Shown one piece after another: positions 8,620 to 24,835 of a stretch of DNA of 24,835 nt. The stretch lies in the IMG/VR virus record IMGVR_UViG_3300031703_000051, positions 1-24,835 of that record, one strand, 5' to 3'. The translations under genes were made by a program, and so were the position numbers. Numbering within the stretch: position 1 is the first letter of the stretch; the number at the start of each line of letters is the position of its first letter. Below the pieces are notes generated by a model. It saw only the letters and a list, made by a program, of their open reading frames with translations. It did not search any database and was not told the origin of the DNA. The DNA comes from a virus.

Positions 8620-8632
8620 CTTTAGTGAAACT

Positions 8633-8684
8633 AAGTGCTCTAAAGTTTTCTTGATTCAAATAAAATGATTATATTTACATATAA
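8633..8684 (+). promoter_or_regulatory. Promoter cassette copy A (TTG-N16-TATATTTA)
   Basis: TTG at 8651-8653 and TATATTTA at 8670-8677, 16 nt apart, within a ~52-nt block that recurs nearly unchanged at 15731, 17831, 19271 and 21132. The -7-like element fits the Bacteroidota TAnnTTTG consensus except for its last base. It drives the phosphatase gene at 8706. Here a 7-bp inverted repeat AACTTTA ... TAAAGTT flanks the upstream part of the block. Confidence 0.7.
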
Positions 8685-8705
8685 TTAAAAACTAAAAACA
8701 ATATT

Positions 8706-9158
8706 ATGACAAAAACAGTAATTTTTGACCTAGATGGTACTCTAGCTCTTATCGATAAACGAAGAGCATTGGCATCAAATAGTAATGGTAAAATCGATTG
8801 GAAAACTTTCTTTAAACCAGAGAACATTTCTTTAGACGAACCTAATATACCAGTAATCGAGTCATTTAATGCCCTCCAGCATGCTGGATTTATCGTGGGA
8901 ATCTTCAGTGGCAGAGATGATATTAGTAAAACTGAAACTGAAAGTTGGTTAGCTGAAAACGGAATTCAACCTGCATTCTTGAGAATGAGAAAATCCGGAA
9001 CATTTATTCCAGATGAAAAATTGAAGAAAATGTGGTTGGGTGATTTGCAAGCAATTGGACATACCATAATGTGTGTGTTTGACGACAGAAATAAAGTAGT
9101 AGATATGTGGAGAGAAAACGGAATTCCATGTTTCCAGGTTGAAGAAGGAAACTTTTAA
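8706..9158 (+). CDS. Polynucleotide 3'-phosphatase-like HAD protein (T4 PNKP phosphatase domain)
   Basis: 150 residues. HAD motif I is VIFDLDGTLA (residues ~5-14), with both catalytic Asp present. GIFSGRDD is motif II, the later Lys residues (EKLKKMW) provide motif III and VFDDRNKVVDMW is motif IV. The pattern SGR...ET..WL, RMRKSG and FDDR..VV.MWR..GIPCFQV is specific to the phosphatase half of T4 polynucleotide kinase-phosphatase. In T4 it removes 3' and 2',3'-cyclic phosphates from nucleic acid ends before ligation. The kinase half is absent, so this is a stand-alone end-healing phosphatase; a DNA ligase lies ~12 kb downstream. It is the first gene after promoter cassette A, and a small membrane-protein gene follows 3 nt later. 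Confidence 0.85.
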   Translation: MTKTVIFDLDGTLALIDKRRALASNSNGKIDWKTFFKPENISLDEPNIPVIESFNALQHAGFIVGIFSGRDDISKTETESWLAENGIQPAFLRMRKSGTFIPDEKLKKMWLGDLQAIGHTIMCVFDDRNKVVDMWRENGIPCFQVEEGNF

Positions 9159-11451: not shown

Positions 11452-11510
11452 TTGTTCATAACTTCCGGAAAATAAATCATCAAATATTTTTTTAATACAA
11501 ATAAAATGAT

Positions 11511-11518
11511 TATATTTA
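11511..11518 (+). promoter_or_regulatory. Promoter cassette copy B (diverged) ahead of sigma gene
   Basis: TATATTTA with the same downstream sequence as the full cassettes and the same spacer end (CAAATAAAATGAT), but the TTG is changed to TTA (11492-11494) and the upstream conserved part is replaced by an AT-rich run. It is 28 nt ahead of the sigma factor gene, so that gene may be controlled differently from the cassette genes. Confidence 0.55.
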
Positions 11519-11546
11519 CATATAATTAAAAACTAAAACAAATAAT

Positions 11547-12146
11547 ATGGCAATAACTTACAGAGAAATGACGGGTAACTTTTTAAGAACGAGATCAGAT
11601 GCTGATTTCACAGTAATATTTTATAGAGTTAAACCGGGTTTAACTGCATACGTTAACAAGATAGTTAAGGACAGAGATTTAGCAGAAGATATTGCAATTA
11701 ACACATTAACTAAATTATGGACTAAAATCGATCAATATAACCCAGATTATCAAATCACAACATGGTTATATCGTATCGCATTTAATGATGCATTAGGACA
11801 TATTAATCAAAGAAAGAAGAAATCATCTCTAACATCTTTATCTGAATTTGGTGTTGAAGTAAATGAGGCTGGAGAAATCGGTAAAGATTTACAAGGTGCA
11901 TTTGATGATTACGAACAAAAAACAGAACAAGATTTCATTGATGAAGATGAAGATTTAATGGAAAGATATGGAAGTGCTCTTAAGGCAATCGATTCATTAA
12001 AGGAAATGTATAAGGGTATCGTTGTTGATAGACTTATTAATAACATGAAATATGAGGATATCGCAGAGAAACATGATATCAGTTTACAAACGGTAAAGAA
12101 TAGAATCCGTAGAGGTAAAGCAATCATTGCAGAAACAGTATCATAA
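11547..12146 (+). CDS. Phage-encoded sigma-70/ECF-type RNA polymerase sigma factor
   Basis: 199 residues, near the length of ECF sigma factors and of the T4 late sigma gp55 (185 aa). Region 2 spans ~20-95: DRDLAEDIAINTLTKLWTKI is helix 2.1-2.2 and TTWLYRIAFNDALGHINQRKKK is 2.3-2.4 with a basic end. A Glu/Asp-rich linker (~105-145) follows. Region 4 (~148-195) has YEDIAEKHDISLQTVKNRIRRGKAI, a clear helix-turn-helix for -35 contact. It should redirect host RNA polymerase to phage promoters; the AGATATATAA motifs are candidates (inference). The following small gene overlaps its stop by one base. Confidence 0.88.
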   Translation: MAITYREMTGNFLRTRSDADFTVIFYRVKPGLTAYVNKIVKDRDLAEDIAINTLTKLWTKIDQYNPDYQITTWLYRIAFNDALGHINQRKKKSSLTSLSEFGVEVNEAGEIGKDLQGAFDDYEQKTEQDFIDEDEDLMERYGSALKAIDSLKEMYKGIVVDRLINNMKYEDIAEKHDISLQTVKNRIRRGKAIIAETVS

Positions 12147-13283: not shown

Positions 13284-13673
13284 ATGAAAAAAGTACAATT
13301 ATTCGAGAACTATTTAAATGAAGCGATATCATTTAACGCAGACGTTCAAGAACCCTTTGAAATAAAGGACGAGAAAAAAGCACAGAAACAATTTAAGATC
13401 ATCGCCGAACCTATTACTATGGTGTCAGTTGACGGAGACATCGCTGAGAGAATGGCAGATGTAACTATTTTCTTTAGCAACCGCGATTCTATCAGTAGAG
13501 TATGGGAGCAAACTCCAGTAAAGGCTAACACAAACAGTATAGTTATTTCACCAAGGGACTCATCAGACATTGATGTTACATTACATACTGATAAATATGT
13601 TGGTTCAACAGGTACTGTTGTAGGAGATCTTGGATTAATCTACAGAGATTGGAAATTAGGAAAAATAAATTAA
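13284..13673 (+). CDS. Candidate internal head protein with CTS-like N-terminus (cluster member 2)
   Basis: 129 residues. The leader MKKVQLFENYLNE|A has the L-x-E|A form cut by T4-type prohead proteases, so a mature protein starting at Ala14 is predicted. The body is strand-rich (KIIAEPITMVSVDGDIA, DVTIFFSNRD, SIVISPRDSSDIDVTLH, GTVVGDLGLIY), and I recognise no domain. It starts 12 nt after the previous gene and 4 nt separate it from the next. Confidence 0.7.
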   Translation: MKKVQLFENYLNEAISFNADVQEPFEIKDEKKAQKQFKIIAEPITMVSVDGDIAERMADVTIFFSNRDSISRVWEQTPVKANTNSIVISPRDSSDIDVTLHTDKYVGSTGTVVGDLGLIYRDWKLGKIN

Positions 13674-13677
13674 CACG

Positions 13678-14109
13678 ATGAAACATACAAAACTATTTGA
13701 AGAATTTCTTAACGAAGGCTTAGAGTCTATCGTTCATGAAGCAAAGTCGGTTAATCCAAAACAAAGAGGAATTGGTAAATTCCTAGGATCAGTGGATAGC
13801 ACTGACGTATATACTTATGATATATTCCCGAAAGTATTATCATCATCAGATGAATTTAAGGACATGACTTTGGATAATATAGAAGCAATACAATCAATGG
13901 TATATGACGCACGTGACAATATGCATGATACTGCGTTGAACGGTAAACCTGGCAAATTAATTAAGAAAAACATCAATAATCTTACTTTTTTAAAATCTAA
14001 GAAAGATGGATCATTTGATAAACCGTCATCTACTAGGAAGGATACTGGTAACTTCGACAGAATGGTAAAAAATTCAACGAAAGATCAACTACTCCGTGGT
14101 TTTAATTAA
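13678..14109 (+). CDS. Candidate internal head protein with CTS-like N-terminus (cluster member 3)
   Basis: 143 residues. Leader MKHTKLFEEFLNE|G, predicted cut before Gly14. Its first 38 nucleotides are identical to those of the gene at 14127. After the leader the protein is a mixed alpha/beta stretch (LGSVDSTDVYTYDIFPKVL) and a basic C-terminal half rich in Lys, Asn and Ser (KLIKKNINNLTFLKSKKDG), which would suit DNA contact inside the head (inference). No known domain. Confidence 0.72.
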   Translation: MKHTKLFEEFLNEGLESIVHEAKSVNPKQRGIGKFLGSVDSTDVYTYDIFPKVLSSSDEFKDMTLDNIEAIQSMVYDARDNMHDTALNGKPGKLIKKNINNLTFLKSKKDGSFDKPSSTRKDTGNFDRMVKNSTKDQLLRGFN

Positions 14110-14126
14110 ACAAATAAATTAATAAT

Positions 14127-14720
14127 ATGAAACATACAAAACTATTTGAAGAATTTCTTAACGAGAATACAAGTGGCGAGATCTTCAATCCAAAACGAGG
14201 GAAAACTGTCAAATTTGACCATACCAAGCATCCTGAATTATCAGGAGAATTCTTTGATTTGATTGCAACAGCTTACGCTGAAATAGGAGGTCATTCGAAG
14301 ATCAAGACGCCCGCTGATGTATTCGGTGATAAGGATTGGAATTATTGGGAAGGTGTTGATTTACATGGAACCAAGGATTTCGATATGATTATGTTTGGTA
14401 AGAAAACAAAATACGGGATTAAATATTCAGGTGTTGGACATGATGGAACTAAGGATGCAAAACGTGCATACATTTCTACTAGAGGAAAGGAACTTAATAA
14501 ACTAGGTTTTTATATTGAGGTTTCAGGGAAAATTGCTGAAATCTTACTAAATTCGTATGATGTACCTGTTATATCAGATGAAGATACTATAAATAAAGTA
14601 TTAGGTAAGAACGTGACATTTATAGGAACTATTGATGGTAAGCCAGGGAATGGATGGTATTCTAGAAAACTAGGTGGAAGCAGCAAAGAAAAAATATTAT
14701 TAGGACGACCTAAAATATAA
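14127..14720 (+). CDS. Candidate internal head protein with CTS-like N-terminus (cluster member 4), conserved unknown domain
   Basis: 197 residues. Leader MKHTKLFEEFLNE|N, identical in DNA for 38 nt to cluster member 3. The body looks like a folded domain of a type I associate with conserved phage proteins without assigned function: FDLIATAYAEIGGHSKI, DWNYWEGVDLHGTKDFDMIMFG, KYSGVGHDGTKDAKRAYI, GFYIEVSGKIAEILL and a C-terminal GNGWYSRKLGG...ILLGRP. Conserved Trp, His, Asp and Gly suggest an enzyme, but I cannot name the reaction. If the leader is a capsid-targeting sequence, this activity would be injected with the DNA. Confidence 0.75.
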   Translation: MKHTKLFEEFLNENTSGEIFNPKRGKTVKFDHTKHPELSGEFFDLIATAYAEIGGHSKIKTPADVFGDKDWNYWEGVDLHGTKDFDMIMFGKKTKYGIKYSGVGHDGTKDAKRAYISTRGKELNKLGFYIEVSGKIAEILLNSYDVPVISDEDTINKVLGKNVTFIGTIDGKPGNGWYSRKLGGSSKEKILLGRPKI

Positions 14721-15724: not shown

Positions 15725-15730
15725 GAAACT

Positions 15731-15782
15731 AAGTGCTCTAAAGTTTTCTTGATTCAAATAAAATGATTATATTTACATATAA
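15731..15782 (+). promoter_or_regulatory. Promoter cassette copy D (TTG-N16-TATATTTA)
   Basis: TTG 15749-15751, TATATTTA 15768-15775, in the conserved ~52-nt block. It is followed by the leader AATTAAAAACTAAAAC and the 37-codon gene at 15804. Confidence 0.72.
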
Positions 15783-15803
15783 TTAAAAACTAAAACAAAT
15801 AAT

Positions 15804-15917
15804 ATGAATTACTCAATAATACACAAAATTGCTAAAGAACGTTTCAATAAATTGCCTAACAAATTAACAGGCACTGAAAAATCGATAGTACTTAACATTT
15901 ATTGGGATTTCTATTAA
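15804..15917 (+). CDS. Small hypothetical protein (37 aa)
   Basis: 37 residues, MNYSIIHKIAKERFNKLPNK..., basic N-terminal half and an aromatic end (NIYWDFY). It is too short for routine calling, but its ATG stands at the position where the other promoter cassettes place their first gene, behind the same leader as the genes at 8706 and 11547. Not recognised. It could be a short host-takeover protein, as early phage genes often are (inference). Confidence 0.6.
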   Translation: MNYSIIHKIAKERFNKLPNKLTGTEKSIVLNIYWDFY

Positions 15918-17797: not shown

Positions 17798-17830
17798 TAA
17801 CATAGCATTGTTCATAACTTTAATGAAAAT

Positions 17831-17882
17831 AAATGCTCTAAAGTTTTCTTGATTCAAATAAAATGATTATATTTACATATAA
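17831..17882 (+). promoter_or_regulatory. Promoter cassette copy E (TTG-N16-TATATTTA)
   Basis: TTG 17849-17851, TATATTTA 17868-17875, in the conserved block with one change upstream (AAATGCTC for AAGTGCTC). The preceding TATAAATAAG hairpin is absent here; instead ATTGTTCATAACTT occurs. It drives the gene at 17908. Confidence 0.72.
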
Positions 17883-17907
17883 CAAATAATTAAAAAACAA
17901 ACAATAT

Positions 17908-18105
17908 ATGAATACAGAAATCGGAGATTTAAGAATTGAATTAAGTGTAGATACTATTTTAATCAGAGAAGTAAAAACTGGAAGATTAATGAAAGCAAAA
18001 ACAGTTAGAGCATCTGAAGCAGTTGACGAATATCATGCATTAGTAAAAAAACTAAAAGCTATACATATTGAAAGAGTTGCAAAGGAACGTGCACAACGTT
18101 CATAA
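17908..18105 (+). CDS. Small hypothetical protein
   Basis: 65 residues: N-terminal strands (IGDLRIELSVDTILIREVKTG) then a long basic helix (DEYHALVKKLKAIHIERVAKERAQR). Not recognised. First gene after promoter cassette E. Confidence 0.68.
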   Translation: MNTEIGDLRIELSVDTILIREVKTGRLMKAKTVRASEAVDEYHALVKKLKAIHIERVAKERAQRS

Positions 18106-19254: not shown

Positions 19255-19270
19255 CTTTTAATTGAAACTA

Positions 19271-19321
19271 AGTGCTCTAAAGTTTTCTTGATTCAAATAA
19301 AATGATTATATTTACATATAA
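19271..19321 (+). promoter_or_regulatory. Promoter cassette copy F (TTG-N16-TATATTTA)
   Basis: TTG 19288-19290, TATATTTA 19307-19314, full conserved block. It drives the small gene at 19338 and probably the membrane-protein genes after it. Confidence 0.72.
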
Positions 19322-19337
19322 CAAATAATTAAAGAAT

Positions 19338-19565
19338 ATGATCAGAGAAAAACAACCAACAAACGGACCAATTATTATTGATCTTACAGGACCTCAAGGA
19401 AACGCATTCGCTTTAATGGGAACAGCAAAGAACCTAGGAAAACAATTAGAAATGACTACAGAACAAATAGATGGACTAATATCGGATATGATGTCAGACG
19501 ATTATGAAAACCTATTAAATGTATTTGATAAGGCATTTGGTGCTTTCGTAATATTAGAACGATAA
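19338..19565 (+). CDS. Small conserved-looking hypothetical protein
   Basis: 75 residues. The N-terminal segment GPIIIDLTGPQGNAFALMGTAKNLGKQL is compact and Gly-rich, then an acidic helical C-terminus (TTEQIDGLISDMMSDDYENL). I associate the IDLTGP-x-GNAF-x-L pattern with small phage proteins of unknown function but cannot name one. First gene after cassette F. Confidence 0.72.
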   Translation: MIREKQPTNGPIIIDLTGPQGNAFALMGTAKNLGKQLEMTTEQIDGLISDMMSDDYENLLNVFDKAFGAFVILER

Positions 19566-21115: not shown

Positions 21116-21131
21116 GAACTTTAATGAAAAT

Positions 21132-21183
21132 AAGTGCTCTAAAGTTTTCTTGATTCAAATAAAATGATTATATTTACATATAA
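21132..21183 (+). promoter_or_regulatory. Promoter cassette copy G (TTG-N16-TATATTTA)
   Basis: TTG 21150-21152, TATATTTA 21169-21176, full conserved block, with the AACTTTA ... TAAAGTT inverted repeat as in copies A and E. It drives the DNA ligase gene. Confidence 0.72.
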
Positions 21184-21199
21184 CTAATAATTAAAGAAT

Positions 21200-22492
21200 A
21201 TGAAAACAGACTTCCAATTAATACGCGAATTTGTAGATCAATCAAACTCAACAAATTCAAATACAGACAAACTTAATGTTCTGAGAACGTATACTAAACA
21301 TGATGTTGTTGCTATGGCATTACATTATACATATAATACATTTAAACAATATGGCGTAACATCGAAGAACTGTAAAAAGAATCATAAATTGTTAGGATAT
21401 GCTAATACATACGGAAACTTCTTCGGTTTATTAGACGATTTGGCCAATAGAGTAATGACTGGACATAATGCGATTGCAAATATCAATAGATTTGTCCAGG
21501 AGAATAAGGAATTTGAAGATATCATTTGGAATATTTTAGATAGAAATCTTAAAACAAGATCAACAACATCAATGATTAATAAGGTGATGCCTGGTTTAAT
21601 TCCAACATTTGACGTTGCATTGGCAGAGTCGTACGATGAGAAGATGGCAAAGAAAGTTGATTGGAATGATGGCTGGTATTTGTCAAGAAAATTAGATGGT
21701 GTAAGATGTATATGTATAATTGATGAAAACGGGAATCCTGATTTTTTCAGTAGAGCAGGTAAGGACTTTTTAACATTAGACACATTGAAGCCTTCAATTA
21801 AAAAGTTAGGATTATCCAATATGATTTTAGATGGTGAGATTTGTATGACTGATGCTGATGGAAATGAAGATTTTCAAGGAATCATTAAAGAGATCAAACG
21901 AAAGAATCATACAATTGAAACTCCTAAATTCTTCGTATTTGATATGTTAACTATGAAAGAATTTACAGATAAAGAGTCCGATACATTATTTTTAGAAAGA
22001 ATAACAAAGGCTGATAATGCTATTGTAGAAGATGAATTTATTCAAGTGCTTCCACAGATATTAGCAAATGATGATAATTTAGCAACATTTATGGAAACAG
22101 TTAAAGAAGAAGGTTGGGAAGGTTTAATGCTCCGTAAGAATACAACATATAAAGGAAAGCGAAGTAAAGATGTTCTTAAAGTTAAGAAATTCCATGATGC
22201 TGAATACACTGTAGTAGATATTGAAAATGCAATAAACAGAGTTATCGTTGATGAAAAGGAAGTTGAAGAAATGATGATGAAGAAAGTAGTAATAGAACAT
22301 AAAGGAAATAGAGTTAGTGTAGGAAGCGGATTCTCACATGAACAGAGACGACATTATTTTTTAAATCCTAATGACATAGTAGGTAAACAAATATGTGTTC
22401 AGTACTTTGAAGAAACATTAAACGAAAAAGGAACTAACTCATTACGATTTCCCACAGTCAAAGCAGTTTACGAAACGAAACGAAACTTTTAA
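21200..22492 (+). CDS. ATP-dependent DNA ligase
   Basis: 430 residues. A helical N-terminal region (1-140) precedes the nucleotidyltransferase domain. Motif I is SRKLDGVR, with Lys as the adenylated residue (K-x-DG); FFSRAGKDF is motif III, ILDGEI the metal-binding Glu strand, FFVFDML motif IIIa, EGLMLRK motif IV and LKVKKF motif V. The C-terminal ~110 residues should be the OB fold. It seals nicks in replication and repair using ATP, as T4 gp30 (487 aa) does. It stands first in a transcript from promoter cassette G, with a Nudix gene 8 nt downstream. Confidence 0.93.
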   Translation: MKTDFQLIREFVDQSNSTNSNTDKLNVLRTYTKHDVVAMALHYTYNTFKQYGVTSKNCKKNHKLLGYANTYGNFFGLLDDLANRVMTGHNAIANINRFVQENKEFEDIIWNILDRNLKTRSTTSMINKVMPGLIPTFDVALAESYDEKMAKKVDWNDGWYLSRKLDGVRCICIIDENGNPDFFSRAGKDFLTLDTLKPSIKKLGLSNMILDGEICMTDADGNEDFQGIIKEIKRKNHTIETPKFFVFDMLTMKEFTDKESDTLFLERITKADNAIVEDEFIQVLPQILANDDNLATFMETVKEEGWEGLMLRKNTTYKGKRSKDVLKVKKFHDAEYTVVDIENAINRVIVDEKEVEEMMMKKVVIEHKGNRVSVGSGFSHEQRRHYFLNPNDIVGKQICVQYFEETLNEKGTNSLRFPTVKAVYETKRNF

Positions 22493-24400: not shown

Positions 24401-24583
24401 ATGGAAGAATTATTAAATCAAATCGTAGAGACAGTAGATTCAATTAGAGAAGATGCTGCTAAATTTGAAGAAAAAGGAAATGGTGCTGCAGGAACAAGAG
24501 TTCGTAAAGCAATGCAAACTATCAAGACATTAGGTCAAGATGTGAGAGTTCATATCTCTGAAGCTAAGAAGGTGAAAGCATAA
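24401..24583 (+). CDS. Histone H1-like (Hc1-type) DNA-binding protein
   Basis: 60 residues. The pattern AAKFEEKGNGAAGTRVRKAMQTIKTLGQDVR, split here as FEEKGNGAAGTRVRKAMQ and TIKTLGQDVR, matches the conserved core of bacterial H1/Hc1-like proteins (EKGNKAAG-x-R-x-RK), which are common in Bacteroidota and Chlamydiae and bind DNA non-specifically. This is the short form without a long Lys/Ala-rich tail. A phage copy could compact phage DNA or compete with the host protein (inference). Leader AAAACAAACAACATGG as in the tube gene suggests high expression. Confidence 0.78.
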   Translation: MEELLNQIVETVDSIREDAAKFEEKGNGAAGTRVRKAMQTIKTLGQDVRVHISEAKKVKA

Positions 24584-24719: not shown

Positions 24720-24774
24720 GGGGAATTAGCTCATTTGGCCAGAGCGCTTGCCTTGCACGCAAGAGGTAATCGGT
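24720..24774 (+). tRNA. tRNA-Ala(UGC), 5' exon, interrupted by a group I intron
   Basis: Acceptor strand GGGGAAT, D-arm GCTC/GAGC, anticodon arm CTTGC-CTTGCAC-GCAAG with anticodon TGC (24754-24756), variable loop AGGTA and 5' T-stem ATCGG follow in perfect register. The expected T-loop TTCGAAT and 3' T-stem CCGAT are missing after the first T (24774). The following sequence has group I intron features, so the 3' exon should lie beyond the window. UGC reads GCA/GCG Ala codons. Confidence 0.85.
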
Positions 24775-24835
24775 TTTTAAACGAGCCGCTTTAAGTAGTG
24801 ATACTTATCGAATAATTGGATGAATTGCTGGAAAT
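24775..24835 (+). other. Group I intron, 5' part (continues past window)
   Basis: P1: exon CGGT plus the first intron T pair with AGCCG (24784-24788), placing a U:G wobble exactly at the 5' splice site after 24774. P2: AAGTA-GTGA-TACTT (24793-24806) with a GNRA tetraloop. P element: AATTGCTGGAAA (24823-24834), the conserved P4 5' strand of group I introns. The Q, R and S elements and the guanosine-binding site should follow outside the window. Confidence 0.82.

Follow-up and report, generated by a model that had tools for sequence, protein, structure and literature searches.

What interrupts a tRNA gene that is canonical up to U54 and then runs into foreign sequence just as its record stops? 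We address this question in the window, by which we mean the whole of a 24,835-base virus contig (IMGVR_UViG_3300031703_000051), whose end at 24835 falls inside the interrupted tRNA. The best explanation, to which we assign a probability of about 0.93, is that a functional tRNA-Ala(UGC) of a T4-like phage with a Bacteroidota-type host is split between U54 and U55 by a small self-splicing group I intron of a bacterial structural-RNA lineage.

The interrupted tRNA-Ala and its phage

The window is part of a T4-like phage genome and encodes terminase, tail sheath, tail tube, guanylate kinase, ATP-dependent DNA ligase, Nudix and histone H1-like (Hc1) proteins; similarity of the tRNA suggests that its host probably belongs to the Bacteroidota. 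A 90-nt element lies upstream of several window genes (8627-8716, 11468-11557, 15725-15814, 17825-17914, 19264-19353 and 21126-21215), with many more copies in the phage L026 described below, and is probably a common promoter or leader module.

The original prediction placed the interrupted gene at 24720-24835, and this is right, with the exon ending at 24774 and the intron beginning at 24775 (Table 1). The Q, R and S elements and the 3' exon are missing from the window because the contig stops, and ARAGORN calls no tRNA here while Rfam at gathering thresholds reports nothing, both as expected for a truncated feature. Shuffling reproduces the match of the guide to the exon junction (CGAGCCG opposite CGGU|UCG) in 3.4% of cases if G-U pairing is permitted, and the window letters alone make a weak case for a group I intron. 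Given the homologue in L026, we regard it as certain from sequence comparison that the window holds a tRNA-Ala interrupted by such an intron.

Table 1. Positions of the interrupted tRNA-Ala, its intron elements and neighbouring genes (window coordinates unless L026 is named).
Feature	Positions	Strand	Basis or remark
ATP-dependent DNA ligase gene	21200-22492	+	Shared syntenic landmark for the interrupted tRNA in the three phages
Histone H1-like Hc1 protein gene	24401-24583	+	Pfam PF07432, E 8.7e-20; neighbour, given as context
5' exon of tRNA-Ala(TGC), G1-U54: acceptor GGGGAAT, D-arm, anticodon TGC, T-stem ATCGG, U54	24720-24774	+	Rfam tRNA, truncated, 23.2 bits
P1 exon strand CGGU, U54 at splice site	24771-24774	+	Pairs with GCCG, 24785-24788
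Group I intron, 5' part, 61 nt to contig end	24775-24835	+	Rfam Intron_gpI, partial
Internal guide CGAGCCG: GCCG pairs with 5' exon (P1, U:G), CGA with 3' exon UCG (P10)	24782-24788	+	Sequence
P2 hairpin TAAGTA-GTGA-TACTTA, GNRA loop	24792-24807	+	Sequence and comparison with L020
P3 5' strand TTGGA	24816-24820	+	L026 sequence; partner TCCAA in the missing half, present in L026
P element AATTGCTGGAAA	24823-24834	+	Homologues in L026 and L020
P4 5' strand TTGCTG, inside P element	24825-24830	+	Partner CAGCAG in L026
L026 tRNA-Ala 5' exon	2616-2670
L026 intron	2671-2898
L026 3' exon	from 2899

A complete copy and a diverged third copy

A scan of IMG/VR for tRNAs without C56 recovers a second phage contig, IMGVR_UViG_3300020187_000009 (L026), in which the gene is complete. 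The covariance search that the original prediction had proposed gives 103.2 bits (E 6.5e-28) for the 228-nt L026 intron over all 253 positions of Rfam Intron_gpI (RF00028), and 14.5 bits (E 0.23) for 24775-24835 of the window, which covers the 5' quarter of the model only. The L026 intron has the conserved P3-P8 core, the P, Q, R and S elements, the U:G pair in P1 and the terminal G of group I; it is too short for a homing endonuclease gene and contains no endonuclease reading frame. The terminal G is G2898, after which comes the 3' exon (TCGACTCCGAT), so that both exon junctions are exact; this exon, TCGACTCCGATATTCTCC, completes the T-stem, T-loop and acceptor. A complete 3' exon of this kind is found by chance in 2 of 3000 random 1.5-kb stretches, and that of L026 also sits exactly behind the terminal G. 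The forecast 3' exon is found exactly in its TCGA and following CCGAT, whereas the acceptor strand reads ATTCTCC, not the ATTCCCC that was expected, a difference that creates the tRNA-Ala hallmark G3:U70. This pair is the main identity element for alanyl-tRNA synthetase. Spliced in silico, L026 is called tRNA-Ala(tgc) by ARAGORN, with the UGC anticodon, an anticodon arm, G3:U70 and a full cloverleaf; the window contains only the 5' exon of this tRNA. Unspliced, L026 yields no call; ARAGORN as run misses tRNAs interrupted in the T-loop, and counts of phage tRNAs can therefore miss such genes.

Window and L026 have highly similar 5' exons and share 92% DNA identity over all 116 nt of the tRNA-intron stretch (E 2e-41), the last 50 nt of the window being identical to L026 2680-2729; ligase DNA is 71% identical and longer gene matches 66-73%. 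Such identity would reflect either recent exchange or strong constraint. The guide reads CGCGCCG in L026 and CGAGCCG in the window and in a third phage, L020, which carries a diverged copy of the intron at the same site of a tRNA with a very similar exon. This copy ends at the contig end, and the truncated intron scores 33.5 bits against Rfam; its core differs (GAATTCGGTGAAGCC), with P4 formed by ACCGAG and UUCGGU. P1 consists of the same four pairs in all three phages, with U54 opposite G in each, and across P1, P2, P4 and P6 100% of cells are paired and no pair is broken. Eight pairs are changed on both sides (two in P2, four in P4, two in P6), compared with 0-2 doubly changed pairs in strand-sliding controls. 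The P2 loop changes from GTGA in the window to GAAA in L020, both GNRA, while the P2 pairs are compensated. The structure of the intron, not its sequence alone, is conserved across the three phages. These homologues bear out what had been read from the window, namely a group I intron in a phage tRNA-Ala, inserted in the T-loop after U54, with U:G at the splice site, a GNRA-capped P2 and a P element.

The same site in three phages might instead have been hit independently, rather than inherited or exchanged, and differences between L020 and L026 in P2, P4 and the length of P5 fit such a history; we consider this improbable, given the good alignment of P6, the guide and the joining segments, the compensation of the differences and the ligase neighbourhood that recurs in all three. 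The three phages are T4-like relatives in which the DNA ligase gene is followed, 1-3 kb downstream and on the same strand, by the interrupted tRNA, with ligase proteins 69% (L026) and 57% (L020) identical to that of the window. In a further phage, L010, a tRNA-Ala(TGC) of different sequence and without intron lies near the ligase.

Bacterial relatives and searches for further cases

Rfam searches of two partly overlapping Bacteroidota samples of 395 genomes each (about 790) yield about 45 group I introns. Those whose flanks were read interrupt tRNA anticodon loops or 23S rRNA, and tRNA introns in these samples are in anticodon loops only. The sole exception to the two locations is L099, a tmRNA intron of Bacteroidia at T-loop site 55|56 with a 5-bp P10, one nucleotide away from the phage site 54|55. 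Among 40 introns compared, L099 aligns best with the phage intron by a wide margin (score 149, against 97 for the next), with 80% identity in aligned columns, and the two have in common a P7.1 extension and TTAATAACCA. A tree of 41 introns, with which a first tree of 22 agrees, places both in an 8-member clade (support 99/98) that also includes anticodon-loop introns, of which several have the same type of P7.1; branching within this clade is weakly resolved (81/62), and the anticodon-loop introns L101 and L106 fall in the same subclade as the phage intron and L099. The phage intron is closer to the tmRNA intron than to most others, a kinship of core sequence that is not exclusive, is drawn with one tmRNA T-loop intron and does not extend to the host gene, which is no tmRNA. 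From this kinship and from the surrounding clade of structural-RNA introns, we assign the phage intron to a bacterial structural-RNA lineage. The same Bacteroidia have uninterrupted tRNA-Ala genes that match the spliced phage tRNA at up to 97% identity.

The pattern for tRNAs without C56 has 12 viral matches in IMG/VR, with introns only in L026 and L020; most of the others are tRNAs with altered T-loops. Among 52 matches in genomes, checked by motif only, group I R/S motifs are absent apart from a single weak case, L035, where the insert resembles a palindrome. IMG/VR and about 85,000 genomes give no other group I case among tRNAs without C56; the patterns used demand either a common D-arm or specified core motifs and do not admit C at 56, so that they would miss some cases as well as other T-loop subsites. 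In the full records of twelve phage contigs and of Dulem virus 42, nothing else scores above the cut-off as an intron. Exact-pattern scans for the window's P1, intron core and 3' half return L026 or nothing; L086 and L087 match coding DNA by chance, L118 looks like another chance match, and L119, although a genuine group I intron, interrupts a protein gene.

The sequence CGGUUCG is common in tRNA T-arms. A guide directed at the T-stem could accordingly allow spread among many phage and host tRNAs, a possibility that the original prediction had raised, and the tmRNA relative shows that the lineage is not confined to a single RNA. No such spread is seen, however: all three tRNA cases involve the same tRNA-Ala, beside a shared ligase neighbour in one phage clade, and the pattern scans found no other tRNA. 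We give the idea little weight. That the window copy is a dead remnant, a tRNA pseudogene whose 3' half is absent from the genome, is very unlikely: the record ends at 24835 and no contig found contains the window's own 3' half, but the feature reaches the very last base, as an assembly break predicts, and its exon and intron show no damage and match the complete L026 copy at 92% identity.

Several other tRNA-like arrangements came to light. GC-rich palindromic hairpins replace or extend T-loops in one Parcubacteria and one Chitinophagales genome (L031 3688-3737 and 4002-4051; L079 73-121), and similar palindromic inserts lie behind tRNAs in Omnitrophota (L035, L049, L064). In Oscillospiraceae and Clostridia (L030, L033, L036, L041, L043, L045-L047, L052, L054-L056, L067, L074, L075), the 5' parts of tRNAs whose anticodon loop is TTCGTAA end in GGT and continue into a recurrent T[GA]TnnnTAAGG in place of a T-loop, which probably marks where an integrated mobile element begins or ends. 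Two related phages (L010, about 14187-14330; L006, about 13655-13800) carry the 3' half of a tRNA-Leu-like gene, comprising variable arm, T-arm (GTAGGTTCGAGTCCTAC) and acceptor strand, and immediately after it the matching 5' half with acceptor strand, D-arm and anticodon strand, the ends pairing as GGTTCC/GGAACC; rearranged into the usual order, the halves give a tRNA call in ARAGORN, with junction and identity uncertain, and the locus looks like a circularly permuted tRNA gene.

Proposed splicing pathway and comparison with known systems

From these sequences we infer splicing, use of the tRNA, and the direction and route of transfer. The phage intron can probably cut itself out. The guide CGAGCCG would hold the T-stem 5' strand CGGU54 in P1, with U54 opposite G, and exogenous guanosine would attack after U54; P10 would then bring the 3' exon UCG, the 3' side of the T-loop, to the same guide, and the second transesterification would join U54 to U55, releasing the intron and sealing the T-loop of a normal tRNA-Ala. 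A sealed T-loop would be needed for docking of the D-loop and T-loop and, probably, for normal processing, so that maturation of this tRNA-Ala would depend on splicing.

The intron would derive from a bacterial group I lineage of structural RNAs that includes the T-loop introns of Bacteroidia tmRNA, and may have occupied 54|55 already in the common ancestor of these phages or have moved among them since. As 228 nt hold no endonuclease gene, mobility would need recombination, a trans-acting homing enzyme or reverse splicing. We tentatively suggest, as a possibility that we do not favour, that phages are a stepping stone for a lineage moving between the T-loops of tmRNA and tRNA-Ala, which have the same charging synthetase and common T-arm features, with the site shifting by one nucleotide as the guide adapts.

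In tmRNA, four T-loop positions are documented as sites of group I introns, one of them restricted to Bacteroidia (PMC11915505). As a separate integration site, the phage position predicted at the outset does stand apart from the anticodon-loop tRNA introns dominant in Bacteroidota, but the T-loop itself is known ground for group I introns in tmRNA. What appears to be new is such an intron in the T-loop of an ordinary tRNA, of which we found no report in the open-access literature, which is no proof of absence. Like the phage intron, L099 occupies the T-loop of an alanine-accepting RNA and has the same core with P7.1 and TTAATAACCA, and one published tmRNA subsite, position 2 in our reading of the numbering, corresponds to the phage 54|55 (PMC11915505); they differ in that the phage intron interrupts a canonical tRNA-Ala, complete with anticodon arm, and that L099 lies at 55|56.

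The bacterial anticodon-loop introns of tRNA-fMet and tRNA-Ile2 (PMC8450103; reviewed in PMC3984707) are likewise small, without an open reading frame and hosted by structural RNAs, but differ in site, and most of those in Bacteroidota lack P7.1 and are distant. The phage T-loop intron contradicts the generalization that tRNA group I introns occupy the anticodon loop. Phage protein-gene introns (the T4 td type, L119 in a terminase gene, the capsid introns of Dulem virus 42) share with ours a phage host and a P element similar to AATTGCTGGAAA, but interrupt protein genes and often carry a homing endonuclease. L119 (6004-6080, minus strand) has a similar P element (GTGAATTGCTGGAAAGC) within a phage gene resembling a large terminase, an endonuclease-like reading frame behind the intron, and a core only 31% identical in alignment. 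According to a 2014 review, every group I intron known from phages at that time interrupted a protein gene, although phages have many tRNA genes (PMC3984707), a rule that the T-loop intron also contradicts. The T-loop emerges as a group I target in tRNA and tmRNA alike, and phages may link the two.
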